This document shows positions 731-38,181 of a stretch of DNA of 38,424 nt, piece by piece. Position 1 is the stretch's first letter. Every line of letters begins with the position of its first letter. Below the pieces are notes generated by a model, which worked only from the letters and a program-made list of their open reading frames with translations, made no database searches and had not been told where the DNA came from. Position numbers and translations under genes: made by a program. This stretch comes from an uncultured Clostridia bacterium (lineage in GTDB: Bacteria > Bacillota > Clostridia > Saccharofermentanales > Saccharofermentanaceae), in contig CAJOLL010000008.1 in assembly GCA_905235455.1 (NCBI GenBank), positions 1 through 38,424 of the forward strand, in the 5' to 3' direction.

Positions 731-759
731 ATTATACTCTTATAAGGGGTGCTTTTCAA
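731..759 (-). promoter_or_regulatory. pta promoter (sigma-A type)
   Basis: On the minus strand TTGAAA (759-754) is followed by a 17-base spacer and a perfect TATAAT (736-731). Transcription should start near 724, giving a leader of about 85 bases before pta. The -35 box overlaps one AAAAGCAC repeat (749-756). Confidence 0.75.
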
Positions 760-818
760 TCAGGAATCCAGTCGGGGCAGAAGATACCGGAGCATCGGTC
801 TTCCCGTTCATTATATCC

Positions 819-3452
819 TCAGGAAGGGGCCGTCCCGTAAAGGTCCTTGTCCGCGCTCAGAATGACGATCTTATCTGCCGACTGTCGGGAATAATCGTCT
901 GACAGATCAAAGTCGGACCAGTCATTGTGGTGGATCGAGAACTGGACGATGAGTTTATCCCCGGATGCCAGTGTCCCCGATCCGAAAGAACTGATCGTGC
1001 AGACAATATCCGCTCCCGCCTTCTTGGGATCCACCTTGGAAAAAGCACCGGTAACGCCGTCGATCGCTTTGTAGTTTCCGTCTTTTGCGCTTACCGCCGA
1101 ATGGTAGCAGTCAAAGGAAAGTGCTCCCGCTCCCTCATTGCTGAAGTAATAAAGGATCGAAAGCCGGCCCAGATCGATCGAAGCGGATCCCGTGTTTTCA
1201 ATCGTCATATTGCCCGAGACCGCATTCCCCTTGCCGCTCATGTTGTATTCCATCAAGACTGACACGGTGCCGTTTCCGGAAGGAGCCGAAGGTACTGTCG
1301 GAGCGGTCGTTGTCTGTGAAGGATCCGTATCCGAAGGTGTCGGAGTCGTCGGAGTGACCGCGCCCGATCCGTCCGGGACCTGTCCGTAAACAAGGACCCC
1401 GTCTTCAAACAGCGCTACGGACGCAGAAGAAGCTGCATCGGAAGCAAGTCCCGTGATCCGGAACTGCACTTCCTTTTTGTATTCTTCCTGTCCGCCCGGA
1501 TAGCACGAATACTCCGCGAAAAGCACCTGAACACAGGCAGTGTTTCCGGTTCCGCCCAGGATCGAAAGCGAAGCCACATCCTGCCCGTACGAAGAAGAGA
1601 CCGAAAGGCTGTCCGCGGTACTTCCCGAAGGAAGCAGGAAGTAATAGCGGAGCTCGAGATTTTTCGGTGCTCTCGCCGGCCAGCCCGTCATGTTATAGGT
1701 AAGCGCTTTGATCTCCAGAAAATCTGCGCCTCCTGCATTCACGGAAGCATCTACCCGATATTCTTCGCCGACTGCTTCTCCTGCACCGAATCCGGTCAGG
1801 GTCTGTCCGTGATAACGGGTATACAGTTTGGCCATAAGGCCCGTAAATCCGGCATTGTAGTCACATGCCACTTCGTTTGTATTGTAGTTACTGACTTCAT
1901 CGGTATAACCGTCCGAAGCATCCGGACCGCCGACGAGAGCGCCGCAGAGAACATGCCTCGAAGTCCCCGGTTCATTCATGTTATCGCAGTAAGAACCCTG
2001 GGCCGTTCTGTGATGAGGATGCTGCGGATAGTTATCGCCGAATCCGATCACATAGGAAAATCCCGTATCTCCCAGTGCATAATTTGCCTGTGAAACAGAA
2101 AAGTTCCAGTAAGTATCTTTTTTCCCTGCCGGGCACAGATCCGTCTCGCTGTATACTGCTGCAACAAATGCCGTGGTCGTCGCATAACGCAGCGAGCCCC
2201 AGCTGTCGAGCCAGGCAAGTCCTTGCGGCGTATACGTGATCCGTTCGCCCGAAACGGTTCCGGTCGTCCAGAAATCCAGATGCTGTTCAATCGCCTTCGC
2301 ATAGACCGGATCTCCTGTTTCCTCGGCAAGCAGCAGCGCTGCGCCGATATGCACATCGTCCCAGCACAAAGACCAGTTATAATCCTGATTCGCTTTCGGA
2401 TAATATTCTTTTGCCTTATTCAGATAAGCACTGTCCCCGCTCGCGCGATAAAGCCACACGCCGGCCCAGCAAAGTTCATCGTAATATCCGCTCCAGGAGT
2501 TGTAAAAACCGTTCGCCGCGGTATATCCGTCATCGCTTTTATACTTATCGGCAAAAGCATATAGAGACTTCGCGTGCTCGAGGCAAGTCGAACTGAAAGC
2601 AGGATCGATCTCTTTAAAGAGGATACTGCAGACTGCAAGAGAGGCGGCTGATTCCGCGGTTACCGCAGAACCCGGATGAGCGGCGTCGACATAGTACGAC
2701 GGACGATTCATCTGATATTCGACACATTCGCCGCTGCCCCACCAGCCGTGATCCGCATTCCCGTCCCCGACCTGATAATAGTAAAGTTCATCCGACGGAT
2801 GGCACTTAATGAAATATTCATTTGCCCAGCGGATATCCGCAAGTGCGTATTCGAGCTGTTTGCTATCGACATATGCATCCGGATCTTCGTATACTGACCA
2901 GCCCAGGATCGAGGCCGTATAGGCCATCGGCAGATTAAACTTCACATTGTCGCCGGCGTCAAACCAGCCTCCGGAAAGATCCAGACCCGCGTCCGATCCG
3001 TCCTTGAGACAAGAATCCCCGCGCCAGTTCGAGCGCGTCTGCCCCGGAAGATCTCCGCTTCTTTGCAGTTCATAGAAAAGAAGCGACTTCTGAAGCGCCT
3101 CACCGTAGTTATATTTCCCGGTTCCGGCAGTTCCTTCGTACCCGTCACCCGTGATCGTCCCGATCGGCCCGATCGAAGAGGTCTCGACGTTTGAAGGTAG
3201 TGTCGGAAGCGAAATATCCGACGGCTCAGAAACTTCGGTATCTGTGACCTCGGAAGTTACTTCTTTGCTTTCCGAAGATCCGTTCGAAACTTCTTCGATC
3301 GAGGTTCCTTCCGTGAGGTCTTTCACATCGGTCTTCTTCGCAAAAGTCTTTTTCCATGCGTAAACAACGCCGCCGATAACCAGTATCACGGCAAGAAAAA
3401 TGCCGCATAGCACGGCAATCTTAGTCTTCTCTTTCATCTTTCCCGACTTCAT
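819..3452 (-). CDS. Membrane-anchored GH9 endoglucanase with CBM3c and C-terminal CBM3
   Basis: This is an 877-residue cellulase. Residues 11-32 form one hydrophobic segment without an obvious signal-peptidase site, so the enzyme is probably a membrane-tethered exoprotein. A Ser/Thr/Glu-rich stalk (40-100) leads to the GH9 (alpha/alpha)6 domain (about 113-550). DAGD at 165-168 holds the catalytic base. H480 in HPHHRT and D518/E527 (acid) in the second GH9 signature are present. Residues 566-690 look like CBM3c, the module fused to processive 'theme B' GH9 enzymes. A Pro/Thr linker (695-727) then joins a second CBM3-like domain (728-877). The start has AGGAG ten bases upstream and overlaps the helicase 3' end by 32 bases. 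An alternative start is M6. Expected role: hydrolysis of cellulose or beta-glucan at the cell surface. Confidence 0.93.
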   Translation of the reverse strand: MKSGKMKEKTKIAVLCGIFLAVILVIGGVVYAWKKTFAKKTDVKDLTEGTSIEEVSNGSSESKEVTSEVTDTEVSEPSDISLPTLPSNVETSSIGPIGTITGDGYEGTAGTGKYNYGEALQKSLLFYELQRSGDLPGQTRSNWRGDSCLKDGSDAGLDLSGGWFDAGDNVKFNLPMAYTASILGWSVYEDPDAYVDSKQLEYALADIRWANEYFIKCHPSDELYYYQVGDGNADHGWWGSGECVEYQMNRPSYYVDAAHPGSAVTAESAASLAVCSILFKEIDPAFSSTCLEHAKSLYAFADKYKSDDGYTAANGFYNSWSGYYDELCWAGVWLYRASGDSAYLNKAKEYYPKANQDYNWSLCWDDVHIGAALLLAEETGDPVYAKAIEQHLDFWTTGTVSGERITYTPQGLAWLDSWGSLRYATTTAFVAAVYSETDLCPAGKKDTYWNFSVSQANYALGDTGFSYVIGFGDNYPQHPHHRTAQGSYCDNMNEPGTSRHVLCGALVGGPDASDGYTDEVSNYNTNEVACDYNAGFTGLMAKLYTRYHGQTLTGFGAGEAVGEEYRVDASVNAGGADFLEIKALTYNMTGWPARAPKNLELRYYFLLPSGSTADSLSVSSSYGQDVASLSILGGTGNTACVQVLFAEYSCYPGGQEEYKKEVQFRITGLASDAASSASVALFEDGVLVYGQVPDGSGAVTPTTPTPSDTDPSQTTTAPTVPSAPSGNGTVSVLMEYNMSGKGNAVSGNMTIENTGSASIDLGRLSILYYFSNEGAGALSFDCYHSAVSAKDGNYKAIDGVTGAFSKVDPKKAGADIVCTISSFGSGTLASGDKLIVQFSIHHNDWSDFDLSDDYSRQSADKIVILSADKDLYGTAPS

Positions 3453-4566
3453 TGATGTCCAACTCCTGTGTCGAAACTTTGGTGTAATGAAGGATGTCGT
3501 CCATCCTCAGACTCTGCGCATAATTGACGAAAGTAAAGGCCTGTCCGGCACGTCCGGCACGCCCCGTTCTTCCGATACGGTGCAGATAGTATTCGTTTTC
3601 ATTCGGCACTTCGAAATTAAATACCGTGTCGATATCGGAAACATCGATACCTCTGGCGGCGACGTCGGTCGCCACGAGGATGTTGAACCTTCCTTTTCTG
3701 AAATCGTCCATGATGCGGTTTCTTGCACCCTGACCGATATCCCCGTGGAGACACTCCGCCCTGTAGCCGAGTCTCTTAATTCCTTCGGTCACGACACGCA
3801 CACGTGTCTTTGTGTTGCAGAAAGCCATGACACGGTTACAATTATACGATTCCATGATCTTGCCGAATGCGTCCATCTTTTCTCTCTCTTCGAGGTGCAA
3901 TACGTACTGGCTGATCTTCGGCATATCCTCTTCCTTCGGAGCCACTTCGATCTCGTCCGCGCCGTCCATATATTCCCAGGTGATGTTCATGACTTCACGG
4001 GACATCGTCGCGGAGAACATGGCGATCTGCTTGTCCTGCGGCGTGAGCTTCATGATCTTTCTTATATCCTTGATGAAACCCATGTCCAGCATCTTATCCG
4101 CCTCATCGAGAACGAGGGTATAGATGTCGGAGATGTTGATGTTTCTGTGCTGCACGTGATCAAGAAGCCTGCCCGGCGTTGCGACCACGATATGCGGTTT
4201 TTTCTTGAGCATCTGGATCTGCTTATCCATCTTCTGTCCGCCGATAATTCCGCAGATCTTTAATCCCTTGATAAAAGCGCCGAGCGCACGAAGCTCCGTG
4301 CAAATCTGAAGCGCAAGCTCTCTTGTGGGACAAAGGATCAGTGCCTGAACGAAATCGGCATCCATGTTAAGATATTCCAAAATCGGGATGCCGAAAGCAA
4401 AAGTCTTACCTGTGCCGGTAGGTGCTTTTGCGATCACACAGTGATTATCCATAAGAAGCGGGATCGCCTGTTTTTGTACCGAGGTCGGTGTCGTCATGCC
4501 CATTTTCGCAAGGGCGCGCATGATCTCGGGAGAAAGATCCATCTGATTAAAAGATGTGTATTCCAA
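3421..4566 (-). CDS. DEAD-box ATP-dependent RNA helicase, minimal core
   Basis: The 381-residue protein is essentially only the two RecA-like domains of a DEAD-box helicase. Visible motifs are the Q-motif (F6 and Q31), motif I APTGTGKT (48-55), PTRELALQ (80-87), TPGR, DEAD (154-157), SAT (185-187) and HRIGRTGR (329-336). There is no basic or RNA-binding C-terminal extension, so it is nearer the short RhlE/CshB type than CshA. It should remodel RNA in the cytosol. The start codon is TTG, not ATG: the next ATG (codon 9) would remove the conserved upstream Phe, and GAGGA sits about 10 bases before the TTG. It starts 5 bases after the ltaS-like stop, so translation is probably coupled. Its pairing with a cell-wall enzyme and a cellulase is unexplained. 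Confidence 0.93.
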   Translation of the reverse strand: MEYTSFNQMDLSPEIMRALAKMGMTTPTSVQKQAIPLLMDNHCVIAKAPTGTGKTFAFGIPILEYLNMDADFVQALILCPTRELALQICTELRALGAFIKGLKICGIIGGQKMDKQIQMLKKKPHIVVATPGRLLDHVQHRNINISDIYTLVLDEADKMLDMGFIKDIRKIMKLTPQDKQIAMFSATMSREVMNITWEYMDGADEIEVAPKEEDMPKISQYVLHLEEREKMDAFGKIMESYNCNRVMAFCNTKTRVRVVTEGIKRLGYRAECLHGDIGQGARNRIMDDFRKGRFNILVATDVAARGIDVSDIDTVFNFEVPNENEYYLHRIGRTGRAGRAGQAFTFVNYAQSLRMDDILHYTKVSTQELDINEVGKDERED

Positions 4567-4571: not shown

Positions 4572-7163
4572 TTATTCCTCGATTTCCGTTTCCTTTTTCT
4601 GCGGAACAAAATAAACCATATCGTAAAGTTCCGAACGCCGCTTGGTAGATTCAAAAACATTATTGTATGCAAGAATCTGATAATCGTTGATGATGCCGGA
4701 CCTGTCCGGGACATCCTCCAAAGTATCGTATCTGTTTCCGAGACTGTCGCAGATCCCGAAAGGTGTCAAGATCGGATACTGGTCGTAGCAGTCCGCAAGC
4801 AGGAGATTATATGCAGGAAGATCGATGTCCGCCATCTGAAGAAGCAGCGTGGACAGATAGTTCAGGCTGATCTCCTTGACCTCATATTCCGGGATATCGT
4901 AGTTCGCCCAGATAAAGAAATCCGTTTTATAAAGTCTCATCAGTTCTTCACTCGAAAGATCCGTCAGTTCTTTCCCGAGAAGGGTCTCATAGAAACCATT
5001 GAGCATACTCGGCAGATGATCACCAAAGAAGCAGATGAGGACCGGCTCATCTACGGAACTGAAGTAATCGATCAGACCTTTTATGGCGATATCAGTTTGT
5101 CTGGCCAAAGTAAGGTACTGCTCTGTCTCCGGGAACTTTTCCGGATACTCAATAAGACGTACATCCTGATCAAAATCCGGATCCGTGCTGTTATAGGCAC
5201 CATGGTTCTGCATCGTGACATTAAACAGGAACAGCGGATGTTTCGGATCCTTATTCTCATAAAGCTCGATCAGTTTTTCGTAGGATGTCTCATCGGAGAT
5301 ATACGAACGGAAATACTTCGCGTTTTCTTCGTCGAAATCATCGATCGAAAGGAACCTGTCGAAGGCCATACTTCCATAGACCGCAGGACGATTCCAGCTG
5401 CTTGCCAGATACGGGTGGATTGCCGCAGTCTGATATCCCTGACTCTTCAAAAAGCGCGGGAGAGAGCCCGTGATCGACCCGATATACTGTTGGTACGGGA
5501 TACTTCCGTCCGGATAGAAAAGCATCGAGTTACCGGTCAGAAACTCAAATTCGGAATTCGCCGTTCCGCCGCCGTATACAGAAACATTGAGATCCCCGTA
5601 TACGATATTGTCGCCCTGCTTCAGTGCATCCATGTTCGGATGCAACGGCAGGTTCGTCTCAAAATCACCGACCGCCGACATATCGGAATATGATTCGTTC
5701 ATGATGCAGATGATCGTCGGTTTTTCGCCTTCCTGAAGGATCCTCTGACCTTCCAGCCGATGGAGCTCCTTTTCGTTTTCATATTCCATCATGACATCGT
5801 TCGGCAGGATATAATGCTCGACCTGGTTCTCGATCTTTTCTCCGATCATCTGTACCTGATCGATACTGTAATCATCCGGCACTTCCACGGCCAGGTGCTG
5901 AGCGTCCATGGTAAGGGAAACCAGAAGTCCGTTCTTCCTGTAATTCAGACGCTGGTTGCCGGAATCGTTCACGACACCCATTTTCTGCATCATACTAAAT
6001 GAAGCTTCCTGATACCTTCTGGAATCGATCAGCGTGATCGTCAGGAAAACGACCAGAACGACACTCACCGCGCCCAAGAACGCGCGGTGCTTTTTACCCG
6101 CGATCTCGTATCTGCATTTCGTAATGAGCAGGATCGTGAAGATAAAAAGCAGCGAGGCAATGATCAATATCGGCGTCAGCTCCACATGATAACTGCCGGA
6201 GACATTCATCGCGGTCTTCAGCGTAACGACATCCCAAACCTGCATCGGAGTACCTCTCCATATAAGTTTGAAATAGTTGAAGAGCGCGATCGCAAAGATC
6301 AGGGTATTCGCGATGATCGTCGTCAGGCGGAAGCGGTTAAAGATAACGAACAGCACGACGTAGATCACGAGGTAGTAGATATAGTTAAGGAAATATGCCG
6401 CCGGAGATTTCTCGAGTACGGAATTACCGTTGAGAAGCTCAGTGACGATAAACATCAGGACCGGCATGATAAACAGTACCGCAAAGGTCATACGTTCTCT
6501 GCCCTTTTCGGAAAGATCCACGTGAACGATCGCGATCAGGGCGCAAAGAAATACCAGGACGATACTGAAAAACATGGCCGGATAGTCCATACGGGAATAG
6601 CGGATCTGCGTATTGCACTGCAAATGCAGGCCCGGCGCCATTCCGGGATAGGATACTTCGCCAAGCTCATCCTGAACATCGGAAGATACCCATACGGACG
6701 GGACTTCTTCGCCATATGTATCGACCGCTTCCAGCGAGATGATATATGTTGTCGTGATATCCAGGTCTTTTTTGATCTTAAAGCGCAGATACTCGTTATC
6801 TTTGATCTTGCTGATCGGAACAGTTTCTTCATATATGACCTTGCCGTCTACTTTAGACAGACGAAAACGGAGATTGCCCTGAGGTGCCATAACGTTACCG
6901 GATTCCAGGTTCGTGGCCATGCGGATCTCGATAAAATCAACATGAGGCTGCTCGGGAGTGAACGGCTGCTCCAGCGGTCTTCCGGCATTGATTCTTCCGA
7001 TCGGGCGGGGATTTGTACCCAGACAGGAGACTGTCTTTCTAAAAGCAAAAACACCCGACGCGAATACGACCGTAAGCAGAAGCGCGACCATGACTATGAG
7101 CACCATCGTCCAGCGCAGTCTGTTCTTCGTCAAACTGAAATGTTTTTTCGTAAACTTAATCAA
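4572..7163 (-). CDS. LTA synthase-family sulfatase-fold membrane protein
   Basis: This 863-residue protein belongs to the LtaS family, which transfers glycerol-phosphate (or a related group) from phosphatidylglycerol onto a polymer outside the membrane. TM1 spans about 18-41. An unusual stretch of about 140 residues, probably Ig-like, follows (50-190). Then come six hydrophobic segments (about 195-215, 226-244, 257-276, 281-300, 331-347, 361-379) and an extracellular sulfatase-like domain (about 481-760). Predicted metal and catalytic residues are E490 (MNESYSD), nucleophile T534 (GGGTANSEFEFLTG) and D715/H716 (FFGDHLP). The start is TTG with GAGAGG five bases upstream; no better ATG is nearby. 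It heads the operon with the helicase and GH9 genes. Whether the product is lipoteichoic acid or a modified glycan cannot be told. Confidence 0.88.
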   Translation of the reverse strand: MIKFTKKHFSLTKNRLRWTMVLIVMVALLLTVVFASGVFAFRKTVSCLGTNPRPIGRINAGRPLEQPFTPEQPHVDFIEIRMATNLESGNVMAPQGNLRFRLSKVDGKVIYEETVPISKIKDNEYLRFKIKKDLDITTTYIISLEAVDTYGEEVPSVWVSSDVQDELGEVSYPGMAPGLHLQCNTQIRYSRMDYPAMFFSIVLVFLCALIAIVHVDLSEKGRERMTFAVLFIMPVLMFIVTELLNGNSVLEKSPAAYFLNYIYYLVIYVVLFVIFNRFRLTTIIANTLIFAIALFNYFKLIWRGTPMQVWDVVTLKTAMNVSGSYHVELTPILIIASLLFIFTILLITKCRYEIAGKKHRAFLGAVSVVLVVFLTITLIDSRRYQEASFSMMQKMGVVNDSGNQRLNYRKNGLLVSLTMDAQHLAVEVPDDYSIDQVQMIGEKIENQVEHYILPNDVMMEYENEKELHRLEGQRILQEGEKPTIICIMNESYSDMSAVGDFETNLPLHPNMDALKQGDNIVYGDLNVSVYGGGTANSEFEFLTGNSMLFYPDGSIPYQQYIGSITGSLPRFLKSQGYQTAAIHPYLASSWNRPAVYGSMAFDRFLSIDDFDEENAKYFRSYISDETSYEKLIELYENKDPKHPLFLFNVTMQNHGAYNSTDPDFDQDVRLIEYPEKFPETEQYLTLARQTDIAIKGLIDYFSSVDEPVLICFFGDHLPSMLNGFYETLLGKELTDLSSEELMRLYKTDFFIWANYDIPEYEVKEISLNYLSTLLLQMADIDLPAYNLLLADCYDQYPILTPFGICDSLGNRYDTLEDVPDRSGIINDYQILAYNNVFESTKRRSELYDMVYFVPQKKETEIEE

Positions 7164-8473: not shown

Positions 8474-8524
8474 ACGTTTTCCTCTTTCATTTTGCGTTGT
8501 TCTTCGTCAAAAGCACCTGTCTTC

Positions 8525-9703
8525 TTACTTCATTCGCATCTCTTTCCAAAAGGATTCTCCGTCCAGATTCGCCGTGTTGATGCCGAAGTAATCCCCGATC
8601 GTTTTCGCGATATCCGCAAAGCTCGATCTCGTTCCCAGATCCGTACCCGGACGGACTCTGTCACCATATGCCAAAAACGGCACATTTTCTCTGGAATGAT
8701 CCGTCGACGGCGTTGACGGATCGCAACCGTGATCTGCGGTGATCATGAGGATATCGTCCTTCTGCAGACGCGACAGGATCTCCGGAAGGCGGTCATCGAA
8801 ATACGTCAAAGCCTCGGCATAGCCGTGCACGTCATTCCGATGCCCGTAAAGCATGTCGAAATCCACGAGGTTGACGAAGATCAGCCCTTCTCTCTGTGTG
8901 TCCATCGCACCGAGCGTCTGCTCGATCCCGTCGATATTTCCGGAAGTACGCACCGATATGCCCACGCCTTTTCCTGCGAAGATATCGTAGATCTTTCCGA
9001 CGCCGTAGACAGGGATCCTTGCCTCGGTCAGATCGTCGAGAAGAGTCGGTCTCGGCGGTTCGATCGAAAAATCGTGGCGGTTCGAGGTTCTCGTGTAATT
9101 CGGGTATTCACCGGTGAACGGTCTTGCAATCACCCTTCCTACTCCGTGTTTTCCCACGAGCATTTTCCTTGCGATCTCACAGTAGCGATAAAGCTCTTCT
9201 ACCGGCACGACGTCCTCGTGCGCCGCGATCTGAAAAACACTGTCCGCCGATGTATAGACGATCAGGTCACCTGTTTTTACATGCTCCCGACCGTAGTCCC
9301 TGATCACTTCCGTACCCGAATAAGGCTTGTTGCAAAGTGCTTTTCGACCGGTCTTCTCTTCAAATTCGACGATGACTTCCTCCGGAAATCCCTCCGGATA
9401 TGTCGGCATCGGTTCCGGCGAAATAATTCCCGCGATCTCCCAATGTCCGATCGTCGTGTCTTTCCCCATGGACGCTTCCTGAAGTCTTGCCCACGCGCCG
9501 ACGCCACTGATGTCCGGCTCGTCATACGGGAGCGCGCCCTTGATTGAGCCCATGCCGATCCGCCTCATATTTGCTATGGAAAAAGCACTGTCCTTCGAGC
9601 ATGCCGCCAGTGTATGCGACCCCTCGTCACCAAAGGCCGCCGCGTCTTTTGCGCCGCCGATGCCACAGCTGTCCAGTACAATGAGTATGACTCGTTTGCC
9701 CAT
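8525..9703 (-). CDS. deoB: Phosphopentomutase
   Basis: A 392-residue member of the alkaline phosphatase superfamily, the standard length for DeoB. Visible signatures are the metal site MGKRVILIVLDSCGIG (D11), the DTTIGHWEIAG segment, and the C-terminal ADHGCDPSTPSTDHSRENVP metal-binding segment. It converts (deoxy)ribose-1-phosphate to (deoxy)ribose-5-phosphate using Mn2+. It is first in the deoB-deoC-cdd operon. Its 5' region (9704-9791) is shared with the divergent gene at 9792. Confidence 0.96.
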   Translation of the reverse strand: MGKRVILIVLDSCGIGGAKDAAAFGDEGSHTLAACSKDSAFSIANMRRIGMGSIKGALPYDEPDISGVGAWARLQEASMGKDTTIGHWEIAGIISPEPMPTYPEGFPEEVIVEFEEKTGRKALCNKPYSGTEVIRDYGREHVKTGDLIVYTSADSVFQIAAHEDVVPVEELYRYCEIARKMLVGKHGVGRVIARPFTGEYPNYTRTSNRHDFSIEPPRPTLLDDLTEARIPVYGVGKIYDIFAGKGVGISVRTSGNIDGIEQTLGAMDTQREGLIFVNLVDFDMLYGHRNDVHGYAEALTYFDDRLPEILSRLQKDDILMITADHGCDPSTPSTDHSRENVPFLAYGDRVRPGTDLGTRSSFADIAKTIGDYFGINTANLDGESFWKEMRMK

Positions 9704-9791: not shown

Positions 9792-11021
9792 ATGCGCAAA
9801 AACCTTACGGGACGTCCGATCATCATGATCTCTCTGGACGCCATTTCAGATAACGACATCAACTATCTGCTCACACTTCCGAACTTTAAAAAACTCGCAT
9901 CCTGGGGACTTTTGCACCGCGGTGTCGACTCGCTTTTCATCTCGAATACTTACCCCGTGCACACCAGTATCTCGACCGGTGTCCTTCCTTCGGAACACGG
10001 GCTTTTCGATAATGTCATATACGACCCTTTCAAGGATTCGGAGAAGTGGCGCGCGCATAAAAGCTTCATAAAGGCGAAGACTCTTCCGGAAAGAGCGAGA
10101 GAAAAAGGCCTCGTTTCCTGCGCAATGATGTATCCCTGCACTCCCGGCGAAAAGATCCGTTACCATCTGGCCGAGATTCCGGGCAACGAGAGCATGTTTT
10201 TCCGCGGCATTAAATTCGTGCACTACAGTTCGGCCTTCCTTCTCTGCCCGAAATTCTTCCGCTATATGAAAAAGTGCAAGTCTTTCAACTACTTTGGCAT
10301 CGATACATTTATCGCTTATACCGCTCGCGACCTGATCGCGAAAGAAAAGGCCGATTTTTATATGCTGCACCTGCAGGACACCGACCATCAGAAGCATCAC
10401 ACCGGCATCGATTCCGACATCACGAAAAAGTCGATCGAGTACGATGACAAACTTCTCGGAAAGATCATCGAAGGTATCGAAGAAGCCGAAAAAAGAGCCG
10501 GCGGCGACCCGGAAAAGGGGATTTTGCATTTCGATATCCTCGTCTTCAGCGACCACGCCTGCTTCAACGTAAAGAACAATATCAAGCCGAACGACCTTTT
10601 AAAAGACGCCGGCATCTCCTTCGAGACAGCCTGGTTCCAGACCGTTAACGGTGCATGTTTCCTGCATGTGGCACCGGATCTTTCTTCCGACGCGAAAAAA
10701 GCACTGGACAAGTTTCTTGACGATTTTAAGAAAATGCCCGGCGTTAAACGCGAGCTTACGAAAGAGGAAATGCACGACAGCGGCGCGATCTGCGCCGGCT
10801 TTACGACCGGCTTTACGCCGGTTCCGGGAACCACGTTCGGCGCGATGAAAAAAGGCCAGCACGGCTATACTCTTGATAACGATGATTACAAGATCTTTTA
10901 CCTCGAGATCGGTCCCGGTCTGATCACCGACAAGCAAAAAGGTACCGAAACTTCCGGCGGCAGCATCCTCGAAGTCGGCAAAAAAGCGATACGTCTTGTT
11001 GAGAAAACGGAGATTTTATAA
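9792..11021 (+). CDS. Type I phosphodiesterase / nucleotide pyrophosphatase-family protein
   Basis: The 409-residue protein carries the NPP-type alkaline phosphatase fold. D16 (MISLDA) and T53 in NTYPVHTSISTG (the probable nucleophile, followed by a PSEHGL turn) form one metal half-site. D198/H202 (DTDHQKH), D254/H255 (FSDHA) and a late GQHGY histidine complete the two-metal centre. There is no signal peptide or membrane segment, so it is predicted to be cytosolic. The substrate is unknown: nucleotide sugars, nucleotides or phosphodiesters are all possible. GGAGG lies seven bases before ATG. It diverges from deoB and converges on kdgK with 4 bases between the stops, so it is probably monocistronic. 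Confidence 0.85.
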   Translation: MRKNLTGRPIIMISLDAISDNDINYLLTLPNFKKLASWGLLHRGVDSLFISNTYPVHTSISTGVLPSEHGLFDNVIYDPFKDSEKWRAHKSFIKAKTLPERAREKGLVSCAMMYPCTPGEKIRYHLAEIPGNESMFFRGIKFVHYSSAFLLCPKFFRYMKKCKSFNYFGIDTFIAYTARDLIAKEKADFYMLHLQDTDHQKHHTGIDSDITKKSIEYDDKLLGKIIEGIEEAEKRAGGDPEKGILHFDILVFSDHACFNVKNNIKPNDLLKDAGISFETAWFQTVNGACFLHVAPDLSSDAKKALDKFLDDFKKMPGVKRELTKEEMHDSGAICAGFTTGFTPVPGTTFGAMKKGQHGYTLDNDDYKIFYLEIGPGLITDKQKGTETSGGSILEVGKKAIRLVEKTEIL

Positions 11022-11025: not shown

Positions 11026-12054
11026 TTATCTTTGGACTCTGCCGGAACCGTCACCGTTCATCAGAGTCTCGACTTCCTTGACACTGACGCGGTTAAAATC
11101 ACCCGGGATCGAATGCTTCAGGCAGCTTGCCGCCACGGCGAATTCAAGTGCTTCCGAATCGTGTTCATAAGTGCGAAGACCATAGATCAAACCTGCCGCA
11201 AAAGAGTCTCCGCCGCCGACACGATCGACGATATCGAAGATCTCATACTTTTTGCTGACATAGAAAACAGAACCGTTATTGATGCAAGCCGACCAGCCGT
11301 TATGGTCTGCGCTGTGGCTCTCGCGGAGTGTGACCGCGACCTTTTTCACATTCGGATAATCCGCAAGTACACGGCTCGTCAGCTTCTCATATTTTTTCAC
11401 ATCGAGGCTGCCTTCTTCCACATCCACATCGAGCTCGATGCCCAGCGATTTCTGGCAATCTTCTTCGTTGCCGATGACTACATCCGTGAACTTTGTGATC
11501 TCCTGCATGATCTCTTTTGCATCCACACCGTACTTCCAGAGATTTTTACGGTAATTCAGATCCACGGAAACAGTGATGCCTCGCGCTTTTGCTTCTTTTA
11601 CCGCCGCGACGGAAAGGTCTGCCGCAGACTTACTGATCGCAGGAGTAATGCCCGTAATATGCAGCCAGTCCACCTCGGCAAAAGCACTTTCCCAGTCGAT
11701 ATCGGAAGGTCCTGCTTCTGCCATCGTCGACCCCGCTCTGTCATAGATCACTTTGCTGGGGCGCTGGTTGGCACCTGTTTCGAGAAAATAGATCCCCATT
11801 CTTCCATCTTTACGGATGATCTTTTCCGTTCCCACTCCGAAACGGCGAAGTTCGGCGATGCATTCATCTCCGATCGTATTCTTCGGAAGCACCGTCAGAA
11901 ACTCACAGGGCATATCGAAATTAGAAAGCGACACCGCAACATTTGCCTCGCCGCCTCCGAATGTCGCCTCGAATTCCGGACTTTGGAAAAAGCGCTCGTT
12001 TCCCTTTGTCTTTAATCTCAGCATGATCTCGCCGAGCGTCAGTATTTTCTTCAT
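11026..12054 (-). CDS. kdgK: 2-dehydro-3-deoxygluconokinase (KDG kinase)
   Basis: A 342-residue PfkB-family sugar kinase. The N-terminal glycine-rich segment [13 protein letters not shown] binds sugar, and the C-terminal [16 protein letters not shown] holds the anion hole and the catalytic Asp. It phosphorylates 2-keto-3-deoxygluconate to KDPG. The specificity assignment rests on its position directly after KDPG aldolase and next to uxaC. AAGGAGG lies seven bases before ATG, in the 12-base gap after eda. It works one step before Eda and one step after UxuA (22135-23208). Confidence 0.93.
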
Positions 12055-12066: not shown

Positions 12067-12711
12067 TTACTGCTTTGCGGAAAGGATCTTTTCCTTTGCG
12101 CTTTTACAGAGCTCCGTGATCTTTTCAAAGTTATGCTCACGGATATCTTTTGCCGTTGCGATGAAACTTCCGCCCACGGCAACAATGCTTTTCTGCGAAG
12201 CAAAATCCGTAATGTTTTCGAGATTTACGCCGCCTGTCGGAAGGAAGCGCATGTCACGGAAAACTCCCGATAATGCCTTGATCGCTTTGATCCCGCCGAA
12301 AAGATCCGCGGGGAAAAATTTAATAACCGATAATCCCAGATTTCTTGCCGCCATGATCTCCGTCGGCGTCACGCAACCGGGAACGACCGCGATATTCTTT
12401 TCGTTACACTTATTCACTACATCTTCGGAAAATCCGGGAGATACGATAAACTCTGCTCCCGCATCCACAGCTCTTTTCAGCTGCTCACCGTCGAGCACGG
12501 TTCCCGCGCCGACGATCATCTCCGGAACTTCTTCTTTTACTTTGGCGATTGCCTCCGCCGCACATGCCGTACGGAAGGTAATCTCCATCATATCAATACC
12601 ACCCGCAAGAAGTGCTTTTGCAGTCGGAACGGCGTCATCGATATTATCAATGACGATGACCGGAACAATCCCGACTCCTTCGATTCTTTTCATAATGCTG
12701 CTCTGATCCAT
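12067..12711 (-). CDS. eda: KDPG / KHG aldolase
   Basis: From ATG at 12711 the protein is 214 residues, the normal length for bifunctional 4-hydroxy-2-oxoglutarate / KDPG aldolases. Family signatures include VIVIDNIDDAVPTAKALLAGG, the substrate-loop EVTFRT-like segment MMEITFRT, GAGTVLD, and the Schiff-base region VIKFFPADLFGG. It cleaves KDPG to pyruvate and glyceraldehyde-3-phosphate. The frame is open to 12750, but ATG 12711 has GGAGG eight bases upstream and is the better start. It is the first gene of eda-kdgK; the upstream region 12712-12870 is shared with the divergent uxaC. Confidence 0.94.
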   Translation of the reverse strand: MDQSSIMKRIEGVGIVPVIVIDNIDDAVPTAKALLAGGIDMMEITFRTACAAEAIAKVKEEVPEMIVGAGTVLDGEQLKRAVDAGAEFIVSPGFSEDVVNKCNEKNIAVVPGCVTPTEIMAARNLGLSVIKFFPADLFGGIKAIKALSGVFRDMRFLPTGGVNLENITDFASQKSIVAVGGSFIATAKDIREHNFEKITELCKSAKEKILSAKQ

Positions 12712-12748
12712 ATGAGCGCCTCCGAATATGTGTTTTTTACCATCTGAC

Positions 12749-14335: not shown

Positions 14336-14388
14336 AGAAAAAGAACTGTCCGCGTGGAATATCTTTCCAAGCCGGCAGTTCTTTTTCT
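14336..14388 (+). terminator. Probable terminator after uxaC
   Basis: AGAAAAAGAACTG (14336-14348) pairs perfectly with CAGTTCTTTTTCT (14376-14388). An inner TGGAA/TTCCA stem shortens the 27-base loop. The 3' arm carries a T5 run, so it could end transcription in both directions. Confidence 0.6.
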
Positions 14389-14473: not shown

Positions 14474-14674
14474 TTAAATGTTGGCATCGATCTCATCAAC
14501 AACTTCCGTGATGGCACTGTTGTGATCTTCGATGCTCTTGGTCACAGACTTAGCTCTGCCAAGATACTCTGCCGCACTGAAGTAAATGACCATGGCGAGA
14601 ATAACGATGATCGCGATGACCAGTACCATTTCAATTAATGTAAAACCCTTTTTCGACTTTTGTAATTTAACCAT
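14474..14674 (-). CDS. Short type IV pilin-like (prepilin) protein
   Basis: From ATG at 14674 the product is 66 residues. It has a basic leader, the prepilin peptidase site KKG|FTLIE (cleavage after G10, Glu at +5 of the mature chain), a hydrophobic helix (about 11-34) and a short polar tail rich in Ser, Glu and Asp. It is far shorter than most major pilins (120-170 residues), so it could be a minor pilin or pseudopilin, or a relic. The start is supported by GGAGG nine bases upstream; a longer frame to 14689 lacks such a site. No pilus ATPase, platform protein or prepilin peptidase is in the window. It stands alone between uxaC and the importer operon, followed upstream by about 150 bases of AT-rich DNA. 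Confidence 0.78.
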   Translation of the reverse strand: MVKLQKSKKGFTLIEMVLVIAIIVILAMVIYFSAAEYLGRAKSVTKSIEDHNSAITEVVDEIDANI

Positions 14675-14689
14675 TCCCCTACCCTCCAA

Positions 14690-18902: not shown

Positions 18903-18939
18903 AAAAGCACCTTCGTTTCAGCATTACAAAGGTGCTTTT
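18903..18939 (-). terminator. Terminator after esterase gene, built from two AAAAGCAC repeats
   Basis: AAAAGCACCTT (18903-18913) and AAGGTGCTTTT (18929-18939) form a perfect 11-bp stem with a 15-base loop, 40 bases after the esterase stop. Both arms contain the window-wide AAAAGCAC repeat in opposite orientation. The region between it and the promoter (18823-18902) holds no gene. Confidence 0.7.
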
Positions 18940-26781: not shown

Positions 26782-28050
26782 TCAAACGAGCTGAACTGCA
26801 CCCGTCGAACGGATCTGAAGGATATGGCATGATCCTTTTCCAAAAGCACCTTCGAGGGTCTCTATATATTCGCGCACTTTGTCTTTCGGGACGAATGCCT
26901 GGATCGTCCCGGCAAAACCGCCGCCGTGCACACGGCAGGCACCCTCTTTGCCCAGTACTTTTCTGCTCAGAAGGAGCGCCAGCGGAATATCCTGTGTTTT
27001 CGGACTTGACGGGTTGAAAAGATTCTGAAGGAGCGTCTCGGAAGATCTTCCCGACTCATTGACCAGATTCAGGAACGTCTTTATATCTTCTTTGTCCAAA
27101 GCCTCTGCTTCTTTTCCGACGCGGGCATCATCGTCAAAAAAATGAGCACTTCGAAGGATCGCGCGATCGGTAATCCCGGGGTCCCTTTTCAGACTGTTGA
27201 TACGGGCGTAAAACTCCTTTTCATCGACATCCCGAAGATTGTTCTTGCCAAAGAAACGGGCCACACTTCTCATCTCCTTCGGGATCGCCGAATACTCTTC
27301 CGAAAGGTCGGCATGACTTCCCTTTGTATCGGTAATGACAAGTGAAAAACCGAACCGATCCAGGTTGCATTGATGAACATCTATCTTTGGTGATGACGGA
27401 TACTGAAAGTCGATCTCAACGAGACCTCCGACCGCCGATACCATCTGATCCATAAGCCCGCAGGCTTTTCCGAAATACGTATTCTCCGCAATCTGTCCGA
27501 ACTTTGCGATCTCTTCGTTTCCGGCCTTTCCGCCGTTAAACAGACAATCAGTCACTTTCCCGATCATAACTTCAAATGCAGCCGAGGAAGAAAGACCGCT
27601 TCCGGAAAGAACGGAGGATGTCACATAGGCATCAAAGCCCCCGACGGAGGTCCCGAGCCATTTAAACTGCGCTGCCGTACCACGGATCAGGGCAGCTGTG
27701 GTCCCCTTTTCTTCTTCTCTCGGAGAAATGTCGCCAAGATCCACTTCGATGCGAGGGTAGCCTTCGGATTGAAGACAGATCGCGTTTTTGCCATTCAGAG
27801 CTACGATCGCGACCGCATCCAGATCCACGGCCGCGGCGAGTACTCTTCCGTGCTGGTGATCCGTGTGATTGCCGCAGATCTCCGTTCTGCCGGGCGCAGA
27901 GAAGATCGAGATATCTTTTTCTTCTGCCTCCGGAAAAGCATCACGAAAGGTTTCTGCCGCCTTCTTGAAGCGCTCCTTCTGAACCGATACGGAAGACTCT
28001 CCGTAAAGGTCTGCCAAAACGGTGTCAAAATCGGATGTATTCAATTTCAT
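26782..28050 (-). CDS. galK: Galactokinase
   Basis: From ATG at 28050 the protein is 422 residues. The GHMP motifs are the galactokinase signature in the clostridial form GRTEICGNHTDHQHG (Glu of the usual GEH replaced by Asn), the ATP loop VLSGSGLSSSAAFEV and the C-terminal RVHGGGFAGTIQAFV. It makes galactose-1-phosphate from galactose. AAGGAAG lies five bases before this ATG. In-frame ATGs at 28077 and 28071 are possible starts too. No galT or galE is adjacent. It follows the metallophosphoesterase gene on the same strand with a short gap and is probably co-transcribed. Confidence 0.93.
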   Translation of the reverse strand: MKLNTSDFDTVLADLYGESSVSVQKERFKKAAETFRDAFPEAEEKDISIFSAPGRTEICGNHTDHQHGRVLAAAVDLDAVAIVALNGKNAICLQSEGYPRIEVDLGDISPREEEKGTTAALIRGTAAQFKWLGTSVGGFDAYVTSSVLSGSGLSSSAAFEVMIGKVTDCLFNGGKAGNEEIAKFGQIAENTYFGKACGLMDQMVSAVGGLVEIDFQYPSSPKIDVHQCNLDRFGFSLVITDTKGSHADLSEEYSAIPKEMRSVARFFGKNNLRDVDEKEFYARINSLKRDPGITDRAILRSAHFFDDDARVGKEAEALDKEDIKTFLNLVNESGRSSETLLQNLFNPSSPKTQDIPLALLLSRKVLGKEGACRVHGGGFAGTIQAFVPKDKVREYIETLEGAFGKGSCHILQIRSTGAVQLV

Positions 28051-28084
28051 CAATACTTCCTTGATCGTCATATACATGTCCTTA

Positions 28085-31161: not shown

Positions 31162-32172
31162 TCAGAATCCCTTCTTTGCATTTTCGAGGGTGCTGATAAC
31201 GCGGTCGCACCACTCGTCGAATTCCTTGTCCTCGTTTTGCAATTCCGGATGAGCAAGCACATTTTTCACGGTCATCTTGATACCCTCTCTGGCGGAGATC
31301 TCAGCACAAAAGTCCGGGACAAGTGCTTTTACCTTGGAATTATCGAAGACGACGGAATTGGATTTGTCACCGATGAGGCTTCCGAGGAAGTCATAGGAAC
31401 TCATGTCGACGAGCGTCCGTGAGGAAACATAATAGGGCTTCAGTTCGACACCCAGAGCCTCTGCAATGGCGCCGTAGATCTCATTCCAGCTCACACTCTC
31501 GTCGGCCGTGATCTGGAAAGCCTCACCGATCGCCTTCGGATTGCCGATAAGGCCGACGTATGCCTTGGCAAAATCACTGTTATGTGTAATGGTCCAAAGA
31601 GACGTGCCGTCACCATGGATAATGACAGGTTTTCCTTCTTTGATGCGTTTTACGACCTGCCAGCTTCCGCCGTTACCTTGCACGCCCAGCGGAACGCTTC
31701 TCTCGTCATAGGTGTGGCTCGGCCGCACGATCGTGACCGGGAAGCCTTCGCTTCTATAGAGGTCCATAAGAAGTTTCTCACAGGCGATTTTGTTTCTGGA
31801 ATACTCCCAATACGGATTCTCCAGCGGTGTCTCTTCCGTGATCATATAGCCCTTCGGCGGCTTCTGATAAGCCGAGGCCGAGCTGATATAGATAAACTGT
31901 CTGGTCTTGTCTTTGAAAAGGCGGAAATCGCGCATAAGCTGCTCGGGAACGAATCCGATAAACTCGCCGACGCAGTCGAAGGTCATGCCTTCCAGTTTCT
32001 TTGCCGTCTCTTCTTCATTGCTGATGTCTGTGATGATAGTCTTCACGCCGGAAGGAATCTCATCATTTCTGTTTCCTCTGTTGAGCAGGTAAAGATCATG
32101 GCCCTGCTTTGCGAGAAGTCTTGTGATCGCCATGCTGATCGTGCCGGTTCCGCCGATAAATAAAATCTTCAT
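31162..32172 (-). CDS. NAD-dependent epimerase/dehydratase-family protein (extended SDR)
   Basis: A 336-residue extended SDR. The N-terminal dinucleotide-binding motif is FIGGTGTIS (residues 5-13), not the canonical GxxGxxG with a third Gly. The active-site pair is YSRNK with an upstream ISSASAY. HTYDERSV and THNSDFAKAYV segments recall the atypical CSP41-like branch. The reaction is unknown. It has GAGGGA before ATG. It lies 349 bases upstream of the WbpM-type gene, which has its own promoter, so the two need not be an operon. The upstream 254 bases (32173-32426) hold only a weak TTGAAA-N17-TAAGTG promoter candidate near 32260-32300. Confidence 0.83.
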   Translation of the reverse strand: MKILFIGGTGTISMAITRLLAKQGHDLYLLNRGNRNDEIPSGVKTIITDISNEEETAKKLEGMTFDCVGEFIGFVPEQLMRDFRLFKDKTRQFIYISSASAYQKPPKGYMITEETPLENPYWEYSRNKIACEKLLMDLYRSEGFPVTIVRPSHTYDERSVPLGVQGNGGSWQVVKRIKEGKPVIIHGDGTSLWTITHNSDFAKAYVGLIGNPKAIGEAFQITADESVSWNEIYGAIAEALGVELKPYYVSSRTLVDMSSYDFLGSLIGDKSNSVVFDNSKVKALVPDFCAEISAREGIKMTVKNVLAHPELQNEDKEFDEWCDRVISTLENAKKGF

Positions 32173-32426: not shown

Positions 32427-33740
32427 TCAGTTTGTTTTCTTTCTGAAGATAAGCGTGATCTTCGTTCCCAGACCGGGTTCACTTTCCAGTTTTACTTTGG
32501 CACCGTGATGCTGGGCACCGTGCTTTACGATCGAAAGGCCGAGTCCCGTTCCGCCGATCTCTTTCGAATGGCTCTTGTCGACGCGGTAGAATCTTTCAAA
32601 TACCCTCTTCTGGTGCTCCTGCGGAATACCGATACCTGTGTCGGCAACCGACAGGAAAACTTCATCGTCCTTCTCGGAAACATCTACGGTAACACTGCCT
32701 CCCGGAGTGTTATATTTTACCGCATTATCACAAAGATTAAAGACCATCTCGCTCAAAAGCTGATAGACACCATTTATGCAGATCGGACTTCCGGTCAGTT
32801 TCAAAGCGATCCCCTGCTTCTTCGCAACCGGCCGTAAGCTGTCGAGGACTTCTCCGGAAAGACCGTACAGATCGACATTTTCCCAATTCGGTTCCTCGGC
32901 GCCCTCATCCAGACGGGAAAGCTTGATAATATCGTCGATCAGCGCGATAAGACGCTGGGATTCTTTGTAGATGTCTTGGGAAAACTCCTGTACTTTATCG
33001 CCGGTGACGACGCCTTCGGACATCAGTTCCGCAAAGCCGGAAATGGAAGTCAGAGGAGTCTTCAGCTCGTGAGAGACATTTGCCGAGAACTCTCTTCGCA
33101 TCTGCTCGCGCGAAGAAACTTCCGCCTGGATCGTTATCTTCTGTTCAACGATCTTCTCGATCAAAGGCCGCAGCTCCGGATACTTATTCTCCTCCGGATG
33201 ATCCAGATCGAGTGCATTGATCGGATTAACGATCTGCTTAGCGATACGGAAAGCCATTATGCCGGAGATCACAAGTACCAGGACCAGGATCCATACGAAA
33301 GGTCTTACCGCCATAAAAGCATCTCTCACTGCTCTTACCGGGCGGCCGAGGCGAAGGACCGTTCCGTCCTGACATCTTCTTGCATAGTACAGTGTCGATT
33401 CACCGCTGTCTTCGGATTTCCGGATTCCCTTTCCTTCCCCCTTTTCCAGAGCGGTCTCAACCTCCGAACAGTTCTTTTCGTTTGAAATCGTACCCATATT
33501 ATCGAAAAGCACTTCTCCGTCCGCATCGATCCATGTGATACGGTTGGCATCCCCCAGTGTTTTCAGATAGGAAACGCCGTTCATCAAAAGGCCCTGTTCC
33601 GCATAGACGGCTTCCTGCCGAAGCGCCTTATATGTATCGTCTTTGGTCTGTGTATACTGCATGCCGAAGAACAAAAGTGCGCATACGATCAGCACAGAAA
33701 CACCCGCTACAAACGTATATCTGAAAATAGTCTTAGTCAT
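32427..33740 (-). CDS. phoR: PhoR-like sensor histidine kinase
   Basis: A 437-residue membrane sensor. TM1 (about 10-28), an extracytoplasmic sensor of about 115 residues, TM2 (about 147-165), then HisKA with H224 in NVSHELKTPLTS, and an ATPase domain with N-box LCDNAVKYN (N339), G1 ADTGIGIP, F-box FERFYRVDKSHS and G2 GGTGLGLSIVK. All catalytic parts are present. The start (ATG) has GGAGG eight bases upstream, inside the response regulator's last codons. The assignment to phosphate sensing rests on PhoR-like order and on the Na/Pi transporter next door. Confidence 0.88.
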   Translation of the reverse strand: MTKTIFRYTFVAGVSVLIVCALLFFGMQYTQTKDDTYKALRQEAVYAEQGLLMNGVSYLKTLGDANRITWIDADGEVLFDNMGTISNEKNCSEVETALEKGEGKGIRKSEDSGESTLYYARRCQDGTVLRLGRPVRAVRDAFMAVRPFVWILVLVLVISGIMAFRIAKQIVNPINALDLDHPEENKYPELRPLIEKIVEQKITIQAEVSSREQMRREFSANVSHELKTPLTSISGFAELMSEGVVTGDKVQEFSQDIYKESQRLIALIDDIIKLSRLDEGAEEPNWENVDLYGLSGEVLDSLRPVAKKQGIALKLTGSPICINGVYQLLSEMVFNLCDNAVKYNTPGGSVTVDVSEKDDEVFLSVADTGIGIPQEHQKRVFERFYRVDKSHSKEIGGTGLGLSIVKHGAQHHGAKVKLESEPGLGTKITLIFRKKTN

Positions 33741-36390: not shown

Positions 36391-36541
36391 CCGGTGCTTT
36401 TTCCGATGAAGGATCTATATCCGCAACCTTCGCAAAAAGGAAAAAGAATGCAACTTATCAGCCATATTTTGATATTTTATGCGCATTCTTAGTAGTAATA
36501 TTAGTATTCGTGAAATCACGTTGCTTTTCAAAAAGCACCGG
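36391..36541. repeat. Inverted pair of AAAAGCACCGG repeats upstream of MATE gene
   Basis: CCGGTGCTTTTT (36391-36402) and AAAAAGCACCGG (36530-36541) are perfect inverted copies 127 bases apart. The second ends 11 bases before the MATE start codon. The stretch between them holds the promoter region of the MATE gene and no convincing reading frame. Confidence 0.7.
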
Positions 36542-36551
36542 GGGATGTTGA

Positions 36552-37979
36552 ATGAGTAAGAATAATTCTGTTGCCATTAATGAAAACACACCACTGATGA
36601 TTCTGGCGGGACCTATGTTTCTTGAGCTGTTTCTGAACACGATGCTCAACAACGTGGATACGCTCATGCTCAGCCACTACGACGAGTTCGCAGTCGGAGC
36701 GGTCGGTAATGCCAACAACATTCTGTTCATGATGAACATTTTCTTTAACGTCATCGCTACAGCCACGACCGTAGTCGTCGCGCAGTATCTCGGCGCTAAA
36801 AAATACGACAAGATGAACATGATCTATACGCTCTCCTTCGTGGTCAACCTCGTTTTCGGTATTGTCCTCAGCGGAGCTTTCTGCCTGGCAAATCCTTTGA
36901 TCATGAATTTTCTACGCGTTTCTCCCCAGATGCGTCACTACTCTATGATGTATCTTTATATCGTCGGCGGCGGCGGATTTGTGACGGCAGTTTTTAATGT
37001 CATGCTTCAGATCGTAAGGTGTAATGGTCATACCAAGATCGGTATGCGTGTCACTTTCGCAATCAACATTATCAACATCATCGGCAATTACCTCTTTCTT
37101 TACGGACCTTTGTCCTTTCTGAATATGGGTGTTGAAGGCGTTGCGATCTCGACCGTGATTGCAAGAATCATCGCCGTCGTCGCACTTCTGTTTTTCTTCT
37201 ATGCCAGCAGAATCGGCCGGATCTCGATCCGTTATCTGAGACCTTTCCCAAAAAAGCTCCTCATGAAAATGATCAGGATCGGGCTTCCGACGGCAGGTGA
37301 AAACCTTACTTACAACCTTTATCAGACTACTCTTCTCTCCTTTGTTAACGGAATGGGCAACGATGCAGTAAATGCGAGAGCCTACTGCAATACGCTGATC
37401 TCTTTTGCTATGATTTTCTCGAATGCCTGCGCCATGTCAACGCAGATCATCACGGGACATCTTGTCGGTGCCGGCAAATCCGACGAAGCATATAAACGAG
37501 TGTTTAAGACCCTTCGCACCTCCATGCCGATCACGGTCGCACTCGCATCGATCAACGCCATTTTATGCCGATATACACTTCAGCTGTTTACAAGTAACCA
37601 AAACGTCATTGCCCTGGGGCAGACGATCATGCTCGTGGATATATTCGTCGAAATCGGACGCTGCCTGAATATGACGTTCGTCTGCAGTCTTAAAGCCGCC
37701 GGCGCATATATGTTCCCGTTGCTTATGGGTATCCTCTGTAACTGGGGCTTAGGCCTTACGACCGGATACGCCGTCGGCGTCCAGATGGGCGTGGGTGTCG
37801 CCGGGATCTTCCTCGGAACGGCCACGGACGAGTGCATCCGCGGTCTGATCGTCATGTTCTACTGGTATAAGAAGAAATGGGTCGGAAAATCCGTCGTCGA
37901 CAAAAAAGAGTTCCTTAAACTGGACGAAGAAAGTCCGGAAAGACCGAGCCGGGCAAAAAAACGCGTTTGCGGATCGTGA
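36552..37979 (+). CDS. MATE-family multidrug/toxin exporter
   Basis: A 475-residue, 12-helix membrane protein. It has the family N-terminal layout (ILAGPMFLELFLNTMLNNVDTLMLS), the VAQYLGAKKYDK loop after helix 2, and the second-half copies GLPTAGENLTYN and QIITGHLVGAGKSDEA. It exchanges Na+ or H+ for organic cations or other solutes; its substrate is unknown. A GGGGG tract seven bases upstream serves as ribosome site. The C-terminus has a basic tail of about 40 residues. It lies about 240 bases after the Na/Pi transporter terminator and has no operon partner. Confidence 0.92.
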   Translation: MSKNNSVAINENTPLMILAGPMFLELFLNTMLNNVDTLMLSHYDEFAVGAVGNANNILFMMNIFFNVIATATTVVVAQYLGAKKYDKMNMIYTLSFVVNLVFGIVLSGAFCLANPLIMNFLRVSPQMRHYSMMYLYIVGGGGFVTAVFNVMLQIVRCNGHTKIGMRVTFAINIINIIGNYLFLYGPLSFLNMGVEGVAISTVIARIIAVVALLFFFYASRIGRISIRYLRPFPKKLLMKMIRIGLPTAGENLTYNLYQTTLLSFVNGMGNDAVNARAYCNTLISFAMIFSNACAMSTQIITGHLVGAGKSDEAYKRVFKTLRTSMPITVALASINAILCRYTLQLFTSNQNVIALGQTIMLVDIFVEIGRCLNMTFVCSLKAAGAYMFPLLMGILCNWGLGLTTGYAVGVQMGVGVAGIFLGTATDECIRGLIVMFYWYKKKWVGKSVVDKKEFLKLDEESPERPSRAKKRVCGS

Positions 37980-38181
37980 CTCGTTTATCCTCTGGTTCAG
38001 TAGCAAAATCGAATTTTAGAGGTTTCTTTAAGCGTTTCAGCCACCGTAGCCGCTGTCGGATATAATGCCGTCTTGGGCATATATCTTTTCGATGGGTTTA
38101 GAAAAGCACTTTTTGGGGGCAACGCGGATAGTCATGTTTCAGACCATACTTTTCCTGAACTCTCCTCAAAGACTATGGCGT

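Follow-up and report, generated by a model that had tools for sequence, protein, structure and literature searches.

What the short word AAAAGCAC is doing in the 38,424-nt stretch of DNA analysed here (the window), where it recurs from one end to the other, is the question raised by this locus; a reading of the bare sequence (hereafter the sequence-only reading) had noted its resemblance to a DNA-uptake signal. The 20 copies counted by eye in that reading were all recovered, 12 on the plus strand and 8 on the minus strand, each directly followed by C or T (20/20) and 18 of the 20 then by G or T, as had been described; the exceptions are those at 749 and 16291. With simple gene calls, seven copies (7/20), the number previously given, lie between genes: 749..756 (-), 8509..8516 (+), 18903..18910 (+) and 18932..18939 (-), which form the left and right arms of a possible terminator stem, 36394..36401 (-) and 36531..36538 (+), both before the MATE gene, and 38102..38109 (+). 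The others fall inside genes, at 1041..1048 (+) and 1519..1526 (+) in the gene 819-3452(-), 4422..4429 (-) in 3421-4566(-), 6087..6094 (-) in 4572-7163(-), 9337..9344 (-) and 9581..9588 (+) in the phosphopentomutase gene 8525-9703(-), 10697..10704 (+) in 9792-11021(+), 11680..11687 (+) in 11026-12054(-), 12612..12619 (-) in 12067-12750(-), 16291..16298 (+) in 14956-16734(-), 26842..26849 (+) in 26782-28077(-), 31323..31330 (-) in 31162-32172(-) and 33505..33512 (+) in 32427-33740(-). A second, weaker form, AAAAGAACY (z 11.9 in the genome sample), is placed at 13212..13220 (+), 14339..14347 (+), 14377..14385 (-), 19682..19690 (-) and 33470..33478 (-). The density of AAAAGCAC is 0.52 per kb in the window and 0.43 per kb genome-wide.

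The genome of the window (G000, an assembly of 2,172,243 bases in 161 contigs) contains 933 copies of AAAAGCAC (477 + 456), compared with 84 of the reversed word (42 + 42). Markov tests were carried out on samples rather than on whole genomes, in this case 432 kb made up of the window and 20 further stretches. With an order-4 model AAAAGCAC is the top 8-mer (193 observed, 44 expected, z 22.5) and AAAAGCACT the top 9-mer (103 observed, 12.2 expected, z 25.9). In the strictest test, an order-6 model trained on the same data, AAAAGCAC still ranks first among 8-mers (193 against 146.6, z 3.8); with order 7 the 9-mers are no longer at the top because the 8-mer already accounts for them. The form AAAAGCACY was observed 178 times against 15.9 expected in 466 kb (order 3). 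Among the 24 one-base neighbours of AAAAGCAC, counted in 394 kb, only AAAAGAAC rises above 35% of its count; in the form AAAAGAACY it reaches 85 copies against 25.3 expected from the order-3 model, which also gives a mild excess of AAAAGCGCY (z 4.6) and AAAAGCTCY (z 4.3). The sequence-only reading had named two results that would speak against it, a genome-wide count of AAAAGCACY near the Markov expectation and an excess confined to one codon context. Neither was obtained: the counts lie far above the low-order expectation, and the excess is seen in genes on both strands as well as between genes. Another 8-mer of G000, GGTGTCGG, likewise stands above expectation (45 against 15.7), and G009 has it in the form CGGTGTCGG (16 against 2.4).

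The alignment of 166 AAAAGCACY sites revealed an extended consensus of about 19 bp, close to T.CTKYGSSAAAAGCACYK, with the flank located upstream of the core. Its best defined positions are T at -9 (55%), C at -7 (57%) and G at -3 (54%), accompanied by less strict preferences for T/C at -6, T/G at -5, C/T at -4 and G/C at -2 and -1; downstream of AAAAGCAC, C/T is followed by T/G. The same trend is found in intergenic sites (36), coding-strand sites (65) and opposite-strand sites (65), and it extends to 80 sites of the AAAAGAACY variant, to 65 sites from G002 and G005 and to smaller collections of sites from other members of the genus. Since a flank common to the three contexts is not expected from protein coding, a single DNA-reading factor is likely to lie behind it. 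No longer shared unit surrounds most of the aligned sites. Tandem units of 63 bp, with AAAAGCAC at their boundary, account for five of the 193 sites sampled; they are located at L042 (G000:C4 ~29827-29960) and L039 (G000:C3 ~31696-31766; contig coordinates), and the loci scanned in relatives showed no such units.

Simple gene calls on the G000 sample (344 genes, 86% coding) place 154 of the 193 AAAAGCAC sites inside genes and 39 between them. For 167 control words of the same composition the means are 16.0 in genes and 2.6 intergenic; the highest control, CAAAAGCA, which overlaps the motif, reaches 85 and 14, and CCGAAAAA likewise has 14 intergenic copies. The 154 coding sites are distributed unequally over the six reading frames (62, 42, 26, 12, 7 and 5). 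The balanced orientation, put forward earlier as an argument against a Chi or KOPS role, extends to the whole assembly (477:456), to the strand relative to the gene (81 same, 73 opposite, no bias) and to each sampled contig, where the orientation of the sites is mixed. The spacing, which had been proposed for checking, proved random, the gaps fitting an exponential distribution (183 gaps, CV 1.01; KS p 0.59 for gaps >70 nt). An apparent alternation of neighbouring orientations in G000 (67 same, 109 different) was not repeated in relatives (118 and 124) and is therefore treated as chance.

Inverted pairs, which the sequence-only reading had taken as an uptake-like feature, do form a possible terminator stem at 18903/18932, and in general they are near chance. 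Pairs of AAAAGCAC within 70 nt are not enriched (7 against 6.1 expected, 183 gaps), and only the 18903/18932 pair among these seven shows the terminator (+-) order. When AAAAGAACY is added (247 sites) there are 14 close pairs against 9.7 expected, three of them in +- order (2.4 expected) and five in the opposite arrangement. A near-perfect inverted partner (at most one mismatch) lies just downstream of 5 of 187 AAAAGCAC sites and of 75 of 3041 permuted words. Nothing sets apart the pair said to flank the region before the MATE gene (36394 and 36531), whose members lie 137 nt from each other. A terminator role was thus rejected as the cause of the excess, close inverted pairs being near chance. 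The AAAAGAACY pair at 14339-14385, located between convergent genes, is terminator-like and in +- order, its members lying 38 nt from each other.

Counts of AAAAGCACY were obtained for 59 genomes, G000 among them: 23 of the genus, 12 others of the same family and 24 others of the same order. All 23 genus genomes carry 213-1221 copies, compared with 23-86 of the reversed word, an imperfect control since two of the outgroups, G058 and G046, reach ratios of 64:5 and 66:14, though from small numbers of copies. Outside the genus the counts are 28-107 in the 12 same-family and 29-99 in the 24 same-order genomes. In a wider sample of the order (148 genomes, 17 of the genus) the 131 non-genus genomes have at most 117 copies, and in a sample of the class (245 genomes, one of the genus) all others have at most 256, the four with at least 250 having genomes of 4.7-5.5 Mb. 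At about 0.09 per kb, the raw densities of G009 and G020 do not stand out from the class sample, which reaches about 0.10 per kb with genome sizes rounded; their excess is visible against the Markov expectation. A strong excess is thus restricted to one genus among the order genomes sampled. Milder excesses occur outside it in places, for example in G026 (AAAAGCACY, 8 against 1.8 in 91 kb) and in G042, an outgroup with type IV pili (AAAAGCAC, 14 against 4.6 in 80 kb). Judged by the glucuronate isomerase protein, the closest records with a title are 11 assemblies that go under the names Clostridiales, Clostridia or, in one case, Mageeibacillus sp. UBA1193, with motif densities of 0.19-0.61 per kb at these loci; seven of the 11 titles name omasum, reticulum or rumen (goat, sheep, water buffalo), and the habitat of the genus is probably the ruminant gut.

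A closer look at individual members of the genus uncovered a dialect differing by one base. When 166 kb of G009 were scanned blindly for over-represented k-mers, AAATGCAC came out as the top 8-mer (42 against 7.6). Counts of AAATGCACY in the 59 genomes reach 596 in G009, 504 in G010 and 478 in G016 (reversed control 13-16), compared with 31-118 in the remaining 20 genus genomes. AAAAGCACY is retained beside it (558 copies in G010, 612 in G016 and 213 in G009), so both forms coexist. The 39 AAATGCACY sites examined in G009 largely share the flank described above, apart from the preference for G/C at -2 and -1, which does not show in them. At aligned positions G009 AAATGCACY reads AAAAGCACY in 4 of 12 comparisons with motif-rich relatives, several of which share a site, and the corresponding count for G010 and G016 is none of four. 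Two species, G008 and G021, have a weak signal though their PilB-type and comEC genes are kept, and 100 kb of each yielded no other strong word.

Conservation at orthologous positions was assessed by counting each G000 site once, with permuted words as controls and the relatives divided into three groups drawn from the observed motif densities. In motif-rich relatives the motif is retained in a mean of 0.73 of comparisons (21 sites), compared with 0.36 for the permuted words (168; Fisher test on rounded counts, p 0.004), and in intermediate relatives in 0.31 (35 sites) compared with 0.11 (259; p 0.004). In the weak species G008 and G021 the values are 0.14 (25 sites) and 0.08 (302; p 0.26). 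When repeated sites are pooled, 66 of 148 are kept against 198 of 1122 permuted. The comparison of aligned loci suggested beforehand therefore gives retention above control in the first two groups and a difference that is not significant in G008 and G021; upkeep of the sites goes with abundance of the motif.

The pilus and competence genes whose presence was to be checked are found in the genus, among them genes for type IV pili, for ComEC and for proteins of the ComEA type. Matches to a PilB-type ATPase, with E below 1e-118, were obtained in 22 of the 23 genomes of the genus, in 11 of the 12 others of the family and in 5 of 24 order outgroups. The locus was read in G012 (L247), where a prepilin peptidase, the PilB-type ATPase, a PilC-type protein, PilM, PilN and four pilins are encoded, together with a second ATPase of the same family that adjoins the first and that, from its position, we take to be PilT. 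In G000 the pilus locus is split over contigs and six pilin matches were obtained, one of them in the window: a small class III (N_methyl) type IV pilin of 71 aa (14474..14689, minus strand), a member of the pilus gene set. Its neighbours are the glucuronate isomerase gene (12871-14283) on one side and, on the other, a gene for 592 aa (14956-16734) to which NCBIfam offers no match at 1e-10. The eight other genomes searched also contain pilin matches of about this length, the likeness being one of size and family. ComEC is present in 56 of the 59 genomes and in 21 of 23 of the genus, in G000 as a frame of 810 aa that combines Competence with metallo-beta-lactamase-fold domains, and a ComEA-type HHH_3 match in 58 of 59 and 22 of 23. 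As both are nearly universal in the 59 genomes, only the pilus adds discrimination. The pilus is not sufficient by itself, the PilB-bearing outgroups G036, G042, G051 and G056 having no strong word in 50-80 kb each. A secretin was not found in any of the four genomes tested (three of the genus, one of a sister genus), as expected for monoderms, and 6 of 14 control genomes gave a match. In another outgroup with type IV pili, G050, the word AAAAGTGTGCA was considered as a second uptake-like word and rejected, being mostly confined to 71- and 92-bp tandem arrays; those at L219 and L221 contain AGTGTGCA on both strands.

The best candidates for a receptor are two minor pilins of about 170-190 aa encoded in the pilus operon. 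One of them (168 aa in G000) is present in 22 of 23 genus genomes and missing in G010, which also lacks a PilB match. Outside the genus its longest matches are in G030 (residues 5-157), G028 (5-130) and G032 (7-131); the rest of the first-ranked matches, five in number, cover no more than the N-terminal half. The C-terminal region has three invariant cysteines in all 12 aligned sequences, and in 10 of these, judged by eye, the first cysteine is followed three residues later by Cys or His; from this pattern the cysteine-rich part of the candidate may bind metal. Co-variation of the receptor with the motif was sought: in G003, G004, G013 and G018 the candidate is only 45-54% identical to that of G000 despite abundant AAAAGCACY, so no clear co-variation is apparent.

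Copy number, occurrence in both orientations, spacing, flank, dialects, conservation and the pilus and ComEC genes all support the resemblance to an uptake signal. From these sequence comparisons, AAAAGCACY with its upstream flank probably is a self-recognition DNA-uptake signal of one Clostridia genus. We infer that the organisms would be competent, that their uptake would prefer the motif and that one of their proteins would read it. In the manner of DUS and USS, a protein at the tip of the type IV pilus would bind the site in free DNA, retraction of the pilus would hand this DNA on to ComEA and ComEC, and as the fragments taken up recombine, sites suited to the receptor would accumulate in the genome (molecular drive). 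Counted against this reading are the wide distribution of ComEC, HHH_3 and type IV pili, which have other uses, the pilus-bearing outgroups in which no strong word was seen, the species G008 and G021, with genes kept but a weak signal, the lack of enrichment of inverted-pair terminators, the few sites at which direct replacement of one dialect by the other is seen, the divergence of the candidate pilin among species rich in AAAAGCACY and the milder excess of this word in places outside the genus.

Most marks of the known signals, DUS and USS, are shared here: high copy number, unoriented dispersal of a non-palindromic word, an extended consensus, lineage-specific dialects and pilus and ComEC/ComEA genes. 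Frequent inverted terminator pairs, a common and not a defining mark, are absent. The USS of Pasteurellaceae (Hin-USS AAGTGCGGT, Apl-USS ACAAGCGGT) resembles the Clostridia signal in its core of about 9 bp with leading A residues. In the parts of the literature consulted, USS are described with an extended flank, about a thousand copies per ~2-Mb genome, both strands, genic and intergenic positions and dialects, as found here (PMC1852404, PMC3630211, PMC12616744). The core itself differs, the Clostridia flank is upstream and not A/T-rich, no secretin was found in three genomes of the genus, and inverted-pair terminators are not enriched. The DUS of Neisseriaceae also has lineage-specific dialects, some one base apart; S. 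muelleri is described as having two dialects one base apart in one genome (Frye et al. 2013, PMC3630211), a situation paralleled here by G010 and G016. It differs in sequence, and terminator-type pairs are few in the Clostridia. According to the portions of these sources consulted, the reader of the Neisseria DUS is the minor pilin ComP (PMC5031613, PMC12040237), a minor pilin is predicted as the USS reader in Pasteurellaceae (PMC12616744), and in the monoderm S. pneumoniae the minor pilins ComGD/ComGF of the competence pilus are proposed to bind DNA (PMC12040237). The same text, as far as consulted, mentions no sequence tag for that pilus, whereas the Clostridia genome carries a candidate one.

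The main rival is a binding site for a genus-specific intracellular protein that organises, replicates or repairs the chromosome, which would be dense and unoriented. It is an unlikely reading, even if it also predicts a degenerate, asymmetric site of about 19 bp in all contexts and positional conservation: the one-base dialect, the weak-signal species and the random spacing without a strand rule fit uptake-driven enrichment better, and no protein of this kind is known to us with such a site. That the word is the relict of a former uptake system, or serves DNA-binding adhesion pili without transformation, agrees with the weak signal of G008 and G021, where pilus genes are kept; the retention of sites above control at orthologous positions in motif-rich relatives implies recent upkeep and makes this improbable. 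Chi and KOPS, which are polar, and HIP1, a palindromic octamer, are likewise short motifs frequent genome-wide; AAAAGCACY is neither palindromic nor polar. A Chi- or KOPS-like motif guiding recombination or DNA translocation, which a short, frequent word at the level of one genus might suggest, is very improbable, the word showing no polarity over the assembly, on contigs or in genes (draft contigs serving as a proxy). Just as little weight can be given to a recognition motif for methylation, restriction or phage exclusion: non-palindromic cores of 6-8 bp are typical of some such systems, but their motifs are as a rule avoided or neutral, unlike a word in 4- to 11-fold excess with a conserved flank of about 10 bp. 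An artefact of composition, codon pairs, terminators or repeat elements, which the two terminator-like pairs of the window, the five of 193 sampled sites in 63-bp units and the unequal reading frames might recall, can practically be dismissed, given that the excess extends to both strands of genes and to intergenic DNA, that inverted pairs are near chance and that most sites lack a longer shared unit. Polarity of the Chi/KOPS type and a compositional artefact are contradicted as far as draft contigs allow.

Returning to the uptake signal, its best reading is that it would have arisen independently of DUS and USS, in monoderm Clostridia. Uptake signals have been named for two families, Neisseriaceae and Pasteurellaceae, in the source texts as far as consulted (PMC5031613, PMC3630211), and no report of the AAAAGCACY motif or of a monoderm uptake-signal system was found in the open-licence PubMed Central listings and abstract openings searched. 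A fuller picture can be offered tentatively, as one that we would not yet expect to hold in all its parts: sequence-specific uptake of self DNA may have evolved a third time, in monoderm gut Clostridia, with a signal of about 19 bp and its dialects read by the tip of a type IV pilus, where a minor pilin whose cysteine motif binds metal may be the reader, and the genus would thereby exchange genes preferentially with its own kind. If true, such a third, independent origin in bacteria that have no outer membrane would mean that this membrane is not needed for sequence choice. It would also provide a new system for the debate on whether uptake signals evolve through kin-biased sex or as a by-product of receptor bias, lead one to expect natural transformation in a genus represented here only by metagenome assemblies and supply a computable mark of gene flow in the genus, with one clear dialect shift.

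Two further observations concern sequences poor in the motif or outside its range. A 14-kb motif-poor stretch of contig C2 was considered as a foreign island; the 10 of its 12 called genes that were scanned encode enolase, transport and nitrogenase-like functions, and it is accessory at most. A cluster of FecCD-type transport and nitrogenase-like genes (NifH family, Oxidored_nitro) occupies L037:878-9860, within the longest motif-free stretch (13,979 bases). In the sister genera, CTCGAAAA is 1.8- to 4.8-fold more frequent than its reversed word in 12 of 12 genomes (G023-G034), compared with 0.7 to 2.1 in the genus, and in 180 kb of G034 it occurs 67 times against a Markov expectation of 10.7, with almost no flank; it is possibly a different signal or a compositional effect.
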